64,000 bases of DNA from contig JAJDCD010000023.1 in the NCBI GenBank assembly GCA_029261035.1, positions 566,565-630,564 on the forward strand, read 5' to 3'. Positions 4,710 through 55,152 of the stretch are shown in pieces. The notes beneath the pieces are model-generated. The model did no database searches. It was given only the letters and a program-made list of their open reading frames with translations, and had not been told where the DNA came from. The position numbers and the translations under genes are program-made. Within the stretch, counting starts at the first letter, position 1. Each line of letters starts with the position of its first letter. Source of the stretch: Candidatus Omnitrophota bacterium. GTDB taxonomy: Bacteria; Omnitrophota; Omnitrophia; Omnitrophales; JACROU01.

Positions 4710-4870
4710 AAATTAAAAAGTTTAAAGTAAAAAATCAGAACCATAATTAAAAACTCAAACATGAAGAAAGCTAGAGGTTTTGACTTTATATTAGAAGATT
4801 AGATAGTAAAAAGAATTTTTTGGGATTTTAAATTTTTAGTTATGGCTTTTACTTTTTACTTTTCAATTTC
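4709..4870. repeat. AT-rich inverted repeat, family A copy 1
   Basis: Two arms of about 40 bases, starting AAATT(G)AAAAAGTTTAAAG on the left and, read in reverse complement, GAAATTGAAAAGTAAAAAG on the right, enclose about 70 bases. Both arms contain a core like AACCATAATTAAAA. The left arm starts at the stop codon of the SRPBCC gene; the right arm supplies the last five codons and the stop of the convergent PEPCK-like gene. A second copy lies at 12405-12550. It may act as a bidirectional terminator or be a small non-autonomous mobile element. Confidence 0.6.
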
Positions 4871-7800
4871 CACAAGGTGTTCTTTGAGTTGTTTTTGCAA
4901 AGGATCCGCGCCAATGGTTCCAGAAAGTTGTTCTATGTAGTCTGGTTTTTGAATTGCTTTAAAATACTGTTCTGCTTTTTCTAGCTGTTCTCTACTTCCC
5001 TTTTTTTGCTCTAAGTATTTAATATGTTTCTTCCAAAGATGAAGGTCTCTTTCTTGCTTTGTTCTTAGTCTATCTTGATACCAATCGCTTTCGAGTAGGT
5101 GTTTTTTTGTGAACAAATTTCTTATGTCTTTATGGTGCAAATCTTTTCCTTCGAAGTTCCCTTCAGCCATAATGTGAATTAATGCTTTGAGAGGAGGGCA
5201 CAAGGCTTCGACACTTCCATCTTGAAGGTAATTTTCAGCGACTCTTTTTTGTGTAGCGACTAAGTTGTTAATTCCATCAACAAAAGAGAGTGCGTCTTGT
5301 TTTTCTGGTTTGAGCATTTCTTCGGTAAAAACAGCATTCGGATTATTAAAGATACGACCTAAGAAAGAATGAACAAATTTAATGGTAATTCGATAACCTA
5401 AAATGCTAGCGAGTACAGTTTTTCCTTCATAATCAAAATTTCTTACTTTTTCTAAATAACCATTTTCGATTAAAAATTGAGGGTTTCTTTCAGCAACAGT
5501 CATGCGGCACCAAATTTCTGGAATGAGTAAACTGATGTCATGGTCCACTTTGTATTTAGGGCCAATATAGCCAGCGGCAGATGAAAAACCGTCATAGCCC
5601 GTAATCAAGTAGGAAACAAGAGCGTTATTTAAATCAGCAGCACTCCAAAGCGCATTAAAAGGTCCTTTGGTTAAAGCGCCTTCAGATCCAAAACCTGTTG
5701 TAGAAGGAGATTTCCCCGTGACGCTACAAGCAAAGTCCATGAATAATTCGGGTAGTTCCTGGTAATGAATTGGGTTATATACGGCTAAAGGAGGAACTCC
5801 TTGTTTTAAGTCTCTTGGATTGTTTCTGCGTCCTGGTAGCACTGCGTTCACGGGTAAATGAACAGGTTTATCTAAAGATATTTTACGATAGAGTTGAGTT
5901 CCAATTGTTGCTAAGTATTTGTTGATGGGTTCTATATGATCCGGTCTTGTTTGTAAATAGCGTGGATTTTTTGTCATTTGACCATCAATAATTCTTGGGA
6001 TAGAGGAACATACAACATAATCTGGTTTTTGGTCTGATGTAAAACGAGTGAGTAAGTCTTTGACGGGTTCTGTGTATTGCTCGAAACCGATGGCATCTTG
6101 TATGATTTCTTTTGCTTGGTTTTGACTTAGGGGTTCGTAGTTTGAAAGAAAGGAGTTTGAGGTTGAAAGGTCCAACTCTCCTTGTTTGTCGTATCCTATA
6201 TGAATGCAATCGTCCGGTCTTTGGAATAAACGATTTTCACAATTGATTACCATTTTTACGCTATCATTTTTATAGTGAGGATTTAAATCATTTAAATATT
6301 TTTTTGGAACAACAACAGAAGCAGTAATGTCGTCTTCGGTTTGAATTTTTTCTGATGCATTATAATCCTGTCTTAGCTTGTAAATCCTCCAAGAACCATC
6401 GGTTTCATGGCCTACGCGTAAATAGTTAGATACTAATTTTTTTTGTTCGTATTTAAGCTCATGACCTAAACTGCCATTAATCATGTCGACAGAAAAATGT
6501 TCTTGCCAATTCTCACCCCATTCGGGACGGTAGTGTCGTTTGACTACAAACACAATATCTTTGATGTGTCTAGGGATTGCCTCTAACCAAGAGTTGTATT
6601 CATCCGTGTATTCTAAAGAAGGGGTGAATAGTTTGATTACAGAACCCAAAGAACGTTGAGGGCTTAGAAGGGGGCGGCTTTCTCTCTTTTCTTGATGAGG
6701 GAGGCGGAAGCGTATTCCAAAATCTTTGCTTAATATTTCTGTAACCATTTTCATGTCTTGATGGAAGTCGGCAGTAAATACAGGGCCTTGAATCATGGCG
6801 TCTTGAATAGATTTAGAAATTTCCGATTTTCCACCACCAGAAACGGTGCACGGCTTATGACAAAAAGTTCCTTCTCCCATAGTTCCTATCAGTTTCCAAG
6901 AATGACTTCCTTTTTGTTTTTCTAATTTTATTTTATATCCAGAGGGTAAGACGTAAGTGTGATAAGCCAACAGTTTTATTTGTTGATCTTGGCCTTCGTG
7001 GGACCAAGTAATAGTTTGATCTTGTATGCGAAACCAAGCATTTTCGGGGATGTAAACAATGTTGGGATATTTTTTATCTGTAGCATAACCCTCAGGGTGG
7101 ACATCCATAATTTCTTTATATAAATTAAGAACATCTTTGAAAGTGCTTTGATTTTCAGGCAAAATACTTTCTAAATGGAACTCTTCTCCTAAATCATAAG
7201 TTGGAAAAGCGATAGCTCCGCCAGAATGCTCTTCTTCACTGAGTCCGTATAGGTTGCTAGAAAAACTGATTTGGGTTTTGACTTCTTTTTTGCAATAACC
7301 AAAATAATTATCTGCAATCAAAGTAACCATTATGCCATTTTCATCTCGGCAGGTTGCTTTAAAAGCAATGCCATCATTGTAAAGTTCGTCTTCCTTACTC
7401 CAACACATTCCTTGCTTCTTTTGAGACTCTGTTGCTTCATCTATGTGAGGAAGGCCAAGGTCTTTCTTTTTTAAATAAATAAGGTGCGGAGCTAGAATAA
7501 CGCATCCCGTATGGCCTGTCCAATGTTCTGTATCTAACCCAGCATCATTTTCTGGAAGGTAAGGGTTTCCCGCATTTCCAAAAATGGATTCAACAAAATC
7601 TAAATTGCTCACTAGGTTTCCTGGAGCAAAGAAGCGTATCTCATTACTTTTTTCTAAAATAAACCCTGGAACTTCCGGACATACGATGGGACGTAAAAGA
7701 AGCGAAACAAATAAATGATCCTGCTTTTTTTGAGCAGAAGAAAAAGGTAACAGCATAAGTTCTTTAGGTGGATTTAAAGCGGCTTCTAGCATTTTTTGGA

Positions 7801-8230
7801 AAGTAAGTTTTGGGACTGTTAATTTATCTCCAGAGATCGGCATTCCACCTTCTGAAACATGAAAAGCCCCTTTGGTTGTACGCCGATCACTTTTAGGGTT
7901 ATGCAAAATACCTTGCTTGATTCTGTATGAGCATAAAATATCCGATTTAAACTCATCTTTATCAAAAGGGAGAGACATGATGCGAGATAAACCATGATGA
8001 TCTAGAACAAAAGTTTTTCTAGGGAGTTCGATGTTGGTATCTGAAGAAGTGTCTTGAAAATAATTATTTAGAAAATCTTCAATACGTTGGTCTGCCGGGC
8101 AGACTTCGGGTGCAAAGGATTGATTGTTCAGTTTATTCAATTTGTCTTGAATATACTGAACACCTTCAGCGTTATCTGTTGAGGATACGCTTTTATTAGA
8201 CTCGATACCTAGAGTAGATTTTAGTGACAT
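4856..8230 (-). CDS. PPi-type phosphoenolpyruvate carboxykinase-like protein
   Basis: Cytoplasmic protein of 1124 residues, the length of the PPi-dependent PEP carboxykinases known from Entamoeba and Propionibacterium (about 1100-1160 residues) and twice that of GTP or ATP enzymes. A P-loop-like segment VSGGGKSEISKS lies at about residue 463, and strongly patterned blocks FGSEGALTKGPFNALWSA and GYIGPKYKVDHDISLLIPE at about 845-895. The reaction would be oxaloacetate + PPi = PEP + Pi + CO2, linking the C4 and C3 pools. I assign the family from overall pattern and length, not from an alignment, so the substrate call is moderate. The stop codon falls inside repeat family A. It is a single-gene unit with about 180 bases of upstream space. 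Confidence 0.6.
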   Translation of the reverse strand: MSLKSTLGIESNKSVSSTDNAEGVQYIQDKLNKLNNQSFAPEVCPADQRIEDFLNNYFQDTSSDTNIELPRKTFVLDHHGLSRIMSLPFDKDEFKSDILCSYRIKQGILHNPKSDRRTTKGAFHVSEGGMPISGDKLTVPKLTFQKMLEAALNPPKELMLLPFSSAQKKQDHLFVSLLLRPIVCPEVPGFILEKSNEIRFFAPGNLVSNLDFVESIFGNAGNPYLPENDAGLDTEHWTGHTGCVILAPHLIYLKKKDLGLPHIDEATESQKKQGMCWSKEDELYNDGIAFKATCRDENGIMVTLIADNYFGYCKKEVKTQISFSSNLYGLSEEEHSGGAIAFPTYDLGEEFHLESILPENQSTFKDVLNLYKEIMDVHPEGYATDKKYPNIVYIPENAWFRIQDQTITWSHEGQDQQIKLLAYHTYVLPSGYKIKLEKQKGSHSWKLIGTMGEGTFCHKPCTVSGGGKSEISKSIQDAMIQGPVFTADFHQDMKMVTEILSKDFGIRFRLPHQEKRESRPLLSPQRSLGSVIKLFTPSLEYTDEYNSWLEAIPRHIKDIVFVVKRHYRPEWGENWQEHFSVDMINGSLGHELKYEQKKLVSNYLRVGHETDGSWRIYKLRQDYNASEKIQTEDDITASVVVPKKYLNDLNPHYKNDSVKMVINCENRLFQRPDDCIHIGYDKQGELDLSTSNSFLSNYEPLSQNQAKEIIQDAIGFEQYTEPVKDLLTRFTSDQKPDYVVCSSIPRIIDGQMTKNPRYLQTRPDHIEPINKYLATIGTQLYRKISLDKPVHLPVNAVLPGRRNNPRDLKQGVPPLAVYNPIHYQELPELFMDFACSVTGKSPSTTGFGSEGALTKGPFNALWSAADLNNALVSYLITGYDGFSSAAGYIGPKYKVDHDISLLIPEIWCRMTVAERNPQFLIENGYLEKVRNFDYEGKTVLASILGYRITIKFVHSFLGRIFNNPNAVFTEEMLKPEKQDALSFVDGINNLVATQKRVAENYLQDGSVEALCPPLKALIHIMAEGNFEGKDLHHKDIRNLFTKKHLLESDWYQDRLRTKQERDLHLWKKHIKYLEQKKGSREQLEKAEQYFKAIQKPDYIEQLSGTIGADPLQKQLKEHLVEIEK

Positions 8231-39053: not shown

Positions 39054-41009
39054 ATGTCAACTGACTCTCTCGATGATCTTTTAAAAGAAGAACGCATTTT
39101 TCCTCCTTCTTCTGATTTTCAACAAAAAGCCAATTTTAAGGACGCTTCCATTTATGAGAAAGCTCTGTCTGACCCTGAAAGTTATTGGTCTGATTGGGCA
39201 AAGAAACTAGATTGGTTCGAGCCATGGAAAGAAGTTTTGAAATGGAATCCTCCACATGCGGAATGGTTTGTGGGTGGGAAGATTAATGCTTGTTATAACT
39301 GTGTAGACCGTCACGCTGCGAATCCTGATAGAAAAAATAAGAAAGCGATTATATTTGAGGGAGAGCAAGGAGAAGTTCGGACTCTTACTTATGAGGAGTT
39401 GCTTAAAGAAGTAAGTCGTTTCGCAAATGTGCTTAAAAATTTAGGAGTGGGTAAGGGAGATCGTATTGCGATTTACATGCCCATGGTTCCAGAGGTGATG
39501 ATTGCTTGTTTGGCATCTGCTCGGATTGGGGCGGTTCATAATGTTGTTTTTGGCGGATTTAGTGCGGAATCTTTAGCAGATCGAATTCAAGATTCTTCAG
39601 CGAAAGTTCTAATTACAGGGGATTATGGTTGGAGAAGAGGTAAGAAGATTTTATTAAAAAAAGCGGCTGATGAATCGTTGGATACTTGTCCAACAATTGA
39701 AAATGTGATTGTTCTAGGACGAGAAGGAAAGTCATCAGAGGATTGTCAGATGAAAGAAGGGCGTGACCATTGGTGGCATGATTTAATCCAGGATGTGAAT
39801 GATGTGTGTGCTCCAGAACCTATGGATGCAGAAGATATGCTCTTTGTTCTCTATACTTCGGGGACGACCGGAAAGCCTAAGGGTATTGTGCATACAACTG
39901 GAGGATATCTCACGGGAGTTTATGCGACGACGCAATGGGTTTTTGATTTAAAAGAAGACGACATTTTTTGGTGTACAGCTGATATTGGTTGGGTAACGGG
40001 ACACAGTTATGTGACTTATGGTCCTTTAGCGAATGGGGCGACAGTTTTGATTTATGAGGGTTCTCCGGATTGGCCAGAGAAGAGTCGGTTCTGGGAAATG
40101 GTAGAGAAACATAAAGTAAGTATTTTTTATACAGCACCTACAGCCATTCGTGCTTTTATGAAATGGGGTACTGAGTGGATTGATAAAACAGACCTTTCTT
40201 CTTTGCGTCTTTTGGGATCCGTTGGAGAACCCATTAATCCTGAAGCATGGATGTGGTATCACAAAAATATAGGAAAAGAAAATTGCCCTATTGTAGATAC
40301 GTGGTGGCAAACAGAAACAGGGGCGATTATGATTACGCCACTTCCGGGAGTTGTGACAACAAAACCGGGTTCTGCTACGAAAGCTTTTCCTGGAATTTCT
40401 GCCACTGTTCTTAATGAACAAGGAGAAGAAATTACTTCGGGTGGAGGTTATGTGGCTATTAATAAACCTTGGCCTTCCATGTTGCGCACCATTTTAAATG
40501 ATGATGAGAGATTTAAAGAACAGTATTGGTCTAAGTGGGATGGGATTTATTTTCCTGGAGATGGAGTTAAGAGAGATGAGGATGGAGACTTTTGGTTTTT
40601 GGGTCGAGTGGATGATGTGATGAATATTTCGGGACATCGGCTTGGAACGGCTGAGGTAGAGAGTGCTCTTGTAGATCATCAGAAGGTTGCGGAGTCTGCT
40701 GTTGTGAGTAAGCCTCATGAAATTAAGGGAGAGGGTATTGTTGCTTTTGTTACTTTGAAAGAAGGGCAAGAGGCGAGTGATGCGTTGAAGGATGAGTTGA
40801 AGCAGCATGTGGTGAAGAAGATTGGGGCGATTGCGAGGCCGGAGGAGATTTTGTTTTCTGTGGATTTACCGAAGACTAGGTCGGGGAAGATTATGCGGAG
40901 GTTGTTGAAGGATATTGCGCTTGGGAAGGCTTTGGGGGATACGACTACGTTGGCGGATCCGAATGTTGTTGCGGAGTTGAAGGAGAAGTACGAAGGAAAA
41001 GAGGGGTAG
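39054..41009 (+). CDS. acs: Acetyl-CoA synthetase (AMP-forming)
   Basis: Protein of 651 residues, the normal Acs length. Core A3 motif [20 protein letters not shown], the acetate-pocket Trp region [18 protein letters not shown], the hinge [18 protein letters not shown] and the acetylatable lysine in [15 protein letters not shown] are present. It makes acetyl-CoA from acetate, ATP and CoA, and is probably controlled by lysine acetylation. The last ~300 bases are strongly G-rich on this strand compared with the rest of the gene. The stop lies 18 bases before the hairpin element at 41028. Confidence 0.95.
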
Positions 41010-41027: not shown

Positions 41028-41179
41028 GGAAATAGCATTTCTCCGGCGCTCAGACATGCTCGGGCTTTGCCCTGCGCAACTCGCGGCGGAGAAATGCTAT
41101 TTCCTCCTCCTAGAGAGTATGTACAATCTTTGGGGTTTGTGGGCAGGTAAAAAAGCGTGGCATCGAGCCACGCTTTTTT
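41028..41179 (+). ncRNA. Bipartite hairpin element copy 1 (putative structured RNA ending in a terminator)
   Basis: An outer 18-bp perfect stem (41028-41045 with 41087-41104) encloses the constant segment CGGCGCTCAGACA (41044-41056), a small GGGC-TTT-GCCC inner hairpin, and the constant AACTCGCGGCGGAGAA (41078-41093, overlapping the outer arm). After a 46-base spacer comes a second hairpin at 41151-41177: an 11-bp stem with loop ATCGA and a run of T, a good rho-independent terminator. Copy 2 at 54854 keeps the constant parts and loop but has different, still complementary stems. It may be a small RNA, an acs 3' element, or a mobile hairpin. It accounts for much of the 336-base gap after acs. 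Confidence 0.5.
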
Positions 41180-41265
41180 AATTCGTGATGTGCTTCAGCG
41201 CAATAAACCTCTTCCGGTCTGCGGTCTCGTTTTTTTTAGCTCCCGACCGACGGTCTCGAATCTTC

Positions 41266-54771: not shown

Positions 54772-54853
54772 AAGCTGATTATATATCAGCAGTAAAGCTG
54801 GGATAGTTAAATAGGGGTATTTGAGGTATGATATTTGTTCTTTAGATGGGGTG

Positions 54854-55001
54854 GAGCCACGGGATAGTTATACGGCGTTCAGACAGCACAAAAGTAAAGA
54901 GCACTTTTGTGAACTCGCGGCGGAGAACTATCCCGTGGCTCTTCTATAGATAATGTTTTTGGGAGGTTGGCAAAAGAAGGGCATCGAGCCCTTATTTTGC
55001 C
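54854..55001 (+). ncRNA. Bipartite hairpin element copy 2 (putative structured RNA)
   Basis: An outer 16-bp perfect stem (54854-54869 with 54926-54941) encloses the constant CGGCGTTCAGACA (54873-54885), an inner 9-bp stem CACAAAAGT / ACTTTTGTG (54887-54911), and the constant AACTCGCGGCGGAGAA (54912-54927). After 27 bases a second hairpin follows (54969-55001): GGCAAAA-G-AAGGGC, loop ATCGA, GCCCTT-A-TTTTGCC. Constant parts match copy 1 at 41028 almost base for base, while all three stems have other sequences and remain paired. It lies between the divergent ABC ATPase and RlmD-like genes, oriented like copy 1 on the plus strand. Confidence 0.5.
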
Positions 55002-55014
55002 ATGGGAATAAGGA

Positions 55015-55042
55015 GTTTCGTTATAGGTCTAAATAACGAAAC
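55015..55042. repeat. Inverted repeat GTTTCGTTAT
   Basis: Perfect 10-bp arms GTTTCGTTAT / ATAACGAAAC with an 8-base loop. It stands between the hairpin element and the RlmD-like gene. No T run follows; it could be a regulator site or a further hairpin. Confidence 0.4.
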
Positions 55043-55132: not shown

Positions 55133-55152
55133 ATCGTCACATGTGTGACGAT
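55133..55152. promoter_or_regulatory. Operator-like palindrome upstream of RlmD-like gene
   Basis: ATCGTCACA and TGTGACGAT form a perfect 9-bp inverted repeat with a 2-base spacer, 15 bases before the ATG at 55168 and just before its AAGGGG site. It resembles a dimeric regulator site such as CRP/FNR-like (TGTGA cores) or a small hairpin affecting translation. Confidence 0.4.

Follow-up and report, generated by a model that had tools for sequence, protein, structure and literature searches.

A probably REP-like hairpin element with free arms around a fixed internal loop, dispersed in an Omnitrophota genome and present in other bacteria

Described hairpin systems and the two copies of the window

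Hairpins with conserved unpaired letters and arms of free sequence are known from the attC sites of integrons, which fold from single strands and are situated behind stop codons; in REPINs, both inverted REP sequences are conserved. REPs possess stems of 5–13 bp with a family-specific sequence and an end tag (GTAG and CGTC superfamilies), and unpaired letters of the stem are important when TnpA_REP recognises the REPs of E. coli (PMC3733652, PMC8266576). The element described here is similar to REPs and BIMEs, since it is a short hairpin of many copies, located mostly downstream of genes and often in inverted pairs (PMC3733652, PMC8266576). Unlike these, it has outer stems with a median of 19–22 bp, beyond the range of 5–13 bp, whose sequence is free, and a constant internal loop; neither an end tag nor a linked RAYT (REP-associated tyrosine transposase) was found. 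The dispersal of hairpin units in a genome is shared with REPINs (PMC3116915). In contrast to REPINs, the arms of the element vary, and neither of its constant strands is the inverted copy of the other. The logic of REPs would thus appear inverted, with free arms and a fixed loop.

The window, i.e., the whole stretch of 64,000 nucleotides analysed, contains two copies, the first of which starts 18 nt past the stop codon of an acetyl-CoA synthetase gene. The features, all on the + strand, are as follows.

39054–41009, +: acetyl-CoA synthetase gene (Pfam ACAS_N and AMP-binding)
41028–41044, +: copy 1, 5' arm of the outer stem, variable between copies; partner 41088–41104
41045–41056, +: copy 1, conserved internal-loop strand GGCGCTCAGACA, recurring in genome copies and across phyla
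41057–41077, +: copy 1, inner hairpin, subtype TGCTCG..CTGCGC
41078–41087, +: copy 1, conserved internal-loop strand AACTCGCGGC
41088–41104, +: copy 1, 3' arm of the outer stem
41148–41180, +: terminator-like hairpin with loop ATCGA and T-rich 3' arm, a lineage-specific companion of the core (z −5.8)
54853–54869, +: copy 2, 5' arm of the outer stem
54870–54885, +: copy 2, internal-loop strand ATACGGCGTTCAGACA
54886–54911, +: copy 2, inner hairpin, subtype GCACAAAA..TTTTGTG
54912–54925, +: copy 2, internal-loop strand AACTCGCGGCGGAG
54926–54942, +: copy 2, 3' arm of the outer stem
54968–55002, +: copy 2, hairpin with loop ATCGA (z −4.7)
55015–55042, +: palindrome GTTTCGTTAT-N8-ATAACGAAAC, which continues the dispersed unit past copy 2

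Every part which the first-pass annotation had assigned to copy 1 was present, namely an outer stem of 17–18 bp, two linkers, a small inner hairpin and the ATCGA-loop hairpin. Copy 2 (54853–54942) follows the same plan with other stem sequences; the linkers, which had been called constant, are nearly so, the first linker of copy 2 being CGGCGTTCAGACA. Both copies fold far better than shuffled sequences on either strand (z −5.0 to −7.4). The subtype TGCTCG..CTGCGC of the inner hairpin occurs in 16 of 53 genome copies.

The loop of the ATCGA hairpin reads GTCGA or ATTGA in other copies. This hairpin belongs to a downstream module which was met only in the genome of the window, and not to the core; of the proposed two-hairpin element, the new multi-copy element is retained, and the second hairpin is assigned to a module of its own. 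The element resembles intrinsic terminators as a stable hairpin of 3' UTRs and differs from them in its core without a T-run, its conserved internal loop and the lack of a G.U excess; in the window, the part of the terminator is taken by the separate ATCGA-loop hairpin. Elsewhere in the window, an open reading frame on the − strand (4856–8230, 1124 amino acids) gave no Pfam match at E 0.001.

Core, copy number and distribution

The exact linker pair was matched 24 times in the genome of 2.70 Mb and the pattern read backwards 0 times; an origin of the element by chance is thus dismissed. A covariance model (R1), built from an alignment of 37 sequences with both window copies among them, matched 55 copies in this genome, including those of the window at E 5e-17 and 3e-15; further copies with compensatory stem changes exist. 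In the alignment, 353 cells were altered on both sides, compared to 121.5 in shuffles, which substantiated the claim that stems differ between copies and are still complementary. Paired cells amounted to 88.5%, as against 40–48% under a sliding control, and several base-pair types were present at nearly every position of the outer stem. The invariance of the loop in these 37 sequences was partly imposed, since the search had been anchored on the loops. Copies with GCTCAAACA, GCTCGGACA and AACTGCGC were later recovered with R1, and the core GCUCRRACA - inner hairpin - RAACUCGC, which is located within a freely variable outer stem, was widened because of such variant loops to GCUCRRACA ... RAACU(C/G).GC. 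The internal loop, consisting of GGCGCTCAGACA opposite GAACTCGCGGC, divides the inner hairpin from the outer stem.

Neither the window nor any of six element loci gave a match to Rfam 15 at gathering score, and the core of copy 1 gave no plausible one below the threshold; a literature search with the sequences of the element yielded no relevant match. "Skipping-rope" RNA did not match either. The hairpin element is probably an unnamed, REP-like family whose arms are free and whose internal loop is fixed, and the initial statement that no described family is known stands.

Exact loops were found in four other genomes when 57 relatives were searched. Among 237 sampled genomes of Omnitrophota, 12, including that of the window, contained the element; the others carry 1–16 copies each. 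In the family around Thermophilibacter gallinarum (G058, locus L064) it was present in 42 of 121 genomes, some of which had 10–31 copies, and Eisenbacteria contained 6–9 copies per genome. Among the matches listed, the core was also present in Atopobiaceae, other Coriobacteriia, Eisenbacteria and one planctomycete (L037). The genomes compared were mostly metagenome assemblies. For the wide scan of genome contigs, exact matches by chance were estimated at dozens, and a match was accepted as real only when it had GGCGC together with an outer stem; singletons lacking both (e.g., L067, L068, L070) were counted as chance. A phage origin was rejected: the strict pattern had 0 matches in viral contigs, and a loose pattern gave only chance-like matches, whose outer stem and core were not convincing.

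Position behind genes, and transcript or DNA

In the genome of the window, 40 of 54 copies were situated at most 60 nt past a stop codon of the same strand, mostly at 10–40 nt; eight stood farther behind a same-strand gene and five behind a gene of the opposite strand. Stops in the GC-rich loci were set by match-anchored stops and a codon-position GC filter, and 100 copies from these genomes yielded 59 behind a sense gene and 24 behind an antisense gene, 13 of these both. The many copies (55), their intergenic location and their placement chiefly downstream of genes are as in REPs. An orientation by replication strand was discarded: 85–94% of the open reading frames in contigs C18, C20 and C21 already lie on one strand, so that the orientation of the element follows that of the genes. 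These contigs and C16 possess a very strong GC skew (size mostly 0.13–0.27); in C16 the skew is reversed over a block from about 100 to 260 kb.

Such positions could belong to a cis-acting RNA of mRNA 3' UTRs, i.e., a long hairpin after the stop codon whose conserved loop would bind a protein, and which would protect or form the 3' end, dispersal being secondary. We regard this explanation, the main rival of the one preferred below, as possible, if rather doubtful. It agrees with the distance from the stop codon to GGCGC, which is sharply peaked at 31–37 nt in Omnitrophota, Atopobiaceae and Eisenbacteria, with the sense bias, with the very stable folds and with the terminator-like hairpin that comes next in the genome of the window. 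Orthologous genes in several species retain the element behind their stops, with arms that are changed yet still complementary; this retention suggests a use, and it counts against mobile DNA, as does the sense orientation relative to the upstream gene, which is not required of a purely DNA-level element. Against a transcript stand antisense copies directly behind stop codons, the presence or absence of the element between the same co-directional genes, and the mismatches. A stem kept for the sake of a transcript is expected to tolerate G.U better than A.C. Isolated mismatches in the outer stems of 189–191 elements, with repeated contexts removed, were 21 G.U to 31 A.C, with 8:7 in the genome of the window (replacing an uncorrected 37:10, which was dominated by two recurrent positions) and 7:15 in the GC-rich genomes. 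Intrinsic terminators of the same genomes show the preference, with 22:6 in the genome of the window (p 0.002 against the elements) and 16:1 in the GC-rich genomes, compared to 7:15 in the elements (p 8e-5). Without a G.U preference in the outer stems, complementarity would appear to be kept or made regardless of strand, and these strand-symmetric mismatches point to DNA rather than to a transcript. Covariation of the stems, which had been taken as the mark of selection on structure, is thus no proof of selection on an RNA; from the initial choice between a structured RNA and a REP-type DNA hairpin recognised via its linkers, the DNA alternative emerges as the better one. If mismatches were repaired by template switching within the palindrome, the test would lose its force and a role as RNA could be hidden. 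Strong covariation between copies need not imply a functional RNA, which can be checked cheaply by setting G.U to A.C counts against those of terminators in the genome concerned. Should the hairpin act on mRNA ends instead, it would constitute a widespread, unnamed 3'-UTR element.

At the level of DNA, the element could be the REP of a resident RAYT, considering that RAYT-like Y1 transposases were present in seven of 11 element genomes checked and that REPs typically lie 3' of genes in intergenic DNA and form inverted pairs (PMC3733652). This is highly unlikely, because the core flanked the gene at 0 of 16 Y1_Tnp loci (the single match lay some 3.5 kb away from the transposase), in contrast to a REPtron. 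A confinement of the copies to transposase ends, by which the first-pass annotation would have been refuted, was not found. Palindromes of other kinds flank the RAYTs, namely GTGACTGTCAC or GGGACAGTCCC in L167, L170, L171 and L174, and GGGCCCGGGC in L168; GTAG adjoined the stem in 0 of 191 elements and CGTC in 19, counted up to 6 nt from the base of the stem. Y1 transposases were found in 29 of 38 genomes of the order without the element and in seven of nine with it, which is no association, and one genome (G006) has six elements and no Y1 transposase. A site for site-specific recombination like attC, which would be a folded single strand behind the stop of a movable gene, is suggested by analogy, namely by the post-stop position, an orientation that prevails, arms that vary and unpaired letters that are conserved, and an integron integrase was detected in two Eisenbacteria genomes. 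We hold it to be very unlikely, since no integron integrase scored above the curated cut-off in 10 of 12 element genomes, including that of the window, and the upstream genes are assorted core housekeeping genes without a common theme, scattered over the chromosome, and not cassettes. Cassette arrays were not seen, nor, by eye, a pair RYYYAAC/GTTRRRY, and the constant letters of the element are in the middle of the hairpin, unlike in attC.

Mobility, exchange of modules and a proposed mechanism

The unit common to copies in the genome of the window is bounded; it reaches from about −20 to +195 relative to the core, and nearly nothing is in common beyond. The core lies within a bounded repeat of ~290 bp, which also holds the ATCGA-loop hairpin and the CGTTAT palindrome. 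In 1.58 Mb of this genome, 26 palindromes GTTTCGTTAT-N8-ATAACGAAAC were located within 400 nt downstream of an element and few elsewhere. Another palindrome, TCGTCACATGTGTGACGA (55134–55151 of the window), had eight matches in 1.58 Mb, six of them downstream of an element, and sometimes stands directly before a start codon. A conserved GGGATAAAGGCGTT is found ~50–60 nt past the CGTTAT palindrome, ahead of the next gene (e.g., copies C21:96510 and C16:341752); 17 of its 19 occurrences in this genome follow an element, and it is possibly part of a promoter or the end of the repeat unit. In genome G242, near-identical copies are contained in other, longer repeats whose downstream sequence is of two kinds; the dispersed repeats are specific to each genome.

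Within Atopobiaceae, the gap between argJ and argB measures 148–265 bp in five genomes with a sense element and 42–105 bp in eight without; in G329, with one antisense copy, it is 190 bp. Sites of argJ without the element contained no obvious empty hairpin. A function as operon-end marker, which the 3' ends of argJ had suggested, was rejected, with argB located behind argJ in all 14 testable genomes. At gatB, six species carry the element, and in five its position is occupied by a second hairpin family, ACGCRGGACTGCGC..GCGGAAGRTCCYGC. Between G058 and G297, and between G278 and G311, 5' flanks and arms are still alike (0.35–0.41; control mean −0.06, sd 0.10, max 0.28). This suggests that tip modules may have been exchanged inside one host hairpin, at one locus and with a similarity which includes the flank beyond the stem. 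Inverted pairs of elements occur, as in BIMEs. Thirteen of 53 copies contain in their inner tip the REP word GTGACTGTCAC, which flanks a resident RAYT gene; 17 words were seen where 0.1 were expected, an example of palindromes nesting at the tips of hairpins.

With middling confidence, we prefer to explain the element as a REP-like DNA hairpin that is dispersed and, most likely, mobile and non-autonomous, as judged from the strand-symmetric mismatches, the bounded repeats, presence and absence, the alternation at gatB, the patchy spread, the inverted pairs and the nested GTGACTGTCAC. Single-stranded or extruded DNA of the element would fold into a hairpin, and a trans-acting enzyme would read the unpaired loop letters and copy or move the element; such reading of loop letters would explain why the loop is conserved and the arms are not. 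New arms might be taken from a palindrome of the host, the element being a module on the tip of a 3' hairpin already present, or the palindrome might be remade at insertion; an origin from host palindromes is inferred from one locus, gatB, and the argJ sites without the element speak against it. Afterwards, mismatches would be removed, or would accumulate equally on both strands. Once settled in a 3' UTR, the element would be transcribed too, giving a stable hairpin with a possible effect on the end of the mRNA. Comparison of Y1 transposases across the order revealed no mobilising enzyme; the two short constant strands could serve as a handle for finding it. More tentatively, there could be a class of mobile hairpins in at least four phyla, read only by the internal loop and settling at the tips of 3' hairpins, where modules with different loops, such as the element and the ACGC/GCTTA family of Atopobiaceae, would replace each other or nest in each other within free arms, moved by a new enzyme.

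Other hairpins were noticed in the genomes compared. A second family in Atopobiaceae (L469–L489, L442, L444) has the form CACGCA-GGACTGCGC-TNCG-GCGGAAGATCC-TGCTTAG within variable outer stems; all copies are directly behind an open reading frame of the same strand, and locus L471 had no Rfam match. In 400 kb of genome G345 (L490–L509), many perfect or near-perfect palindromes with stems of 30–47 bp were present, e.g., TGACAAAGGTGACAGGG..CTGTCATGA and CGTGCAAAGGGGACAGGCACTTTTGCACG, which are several dispersed families in one genome.
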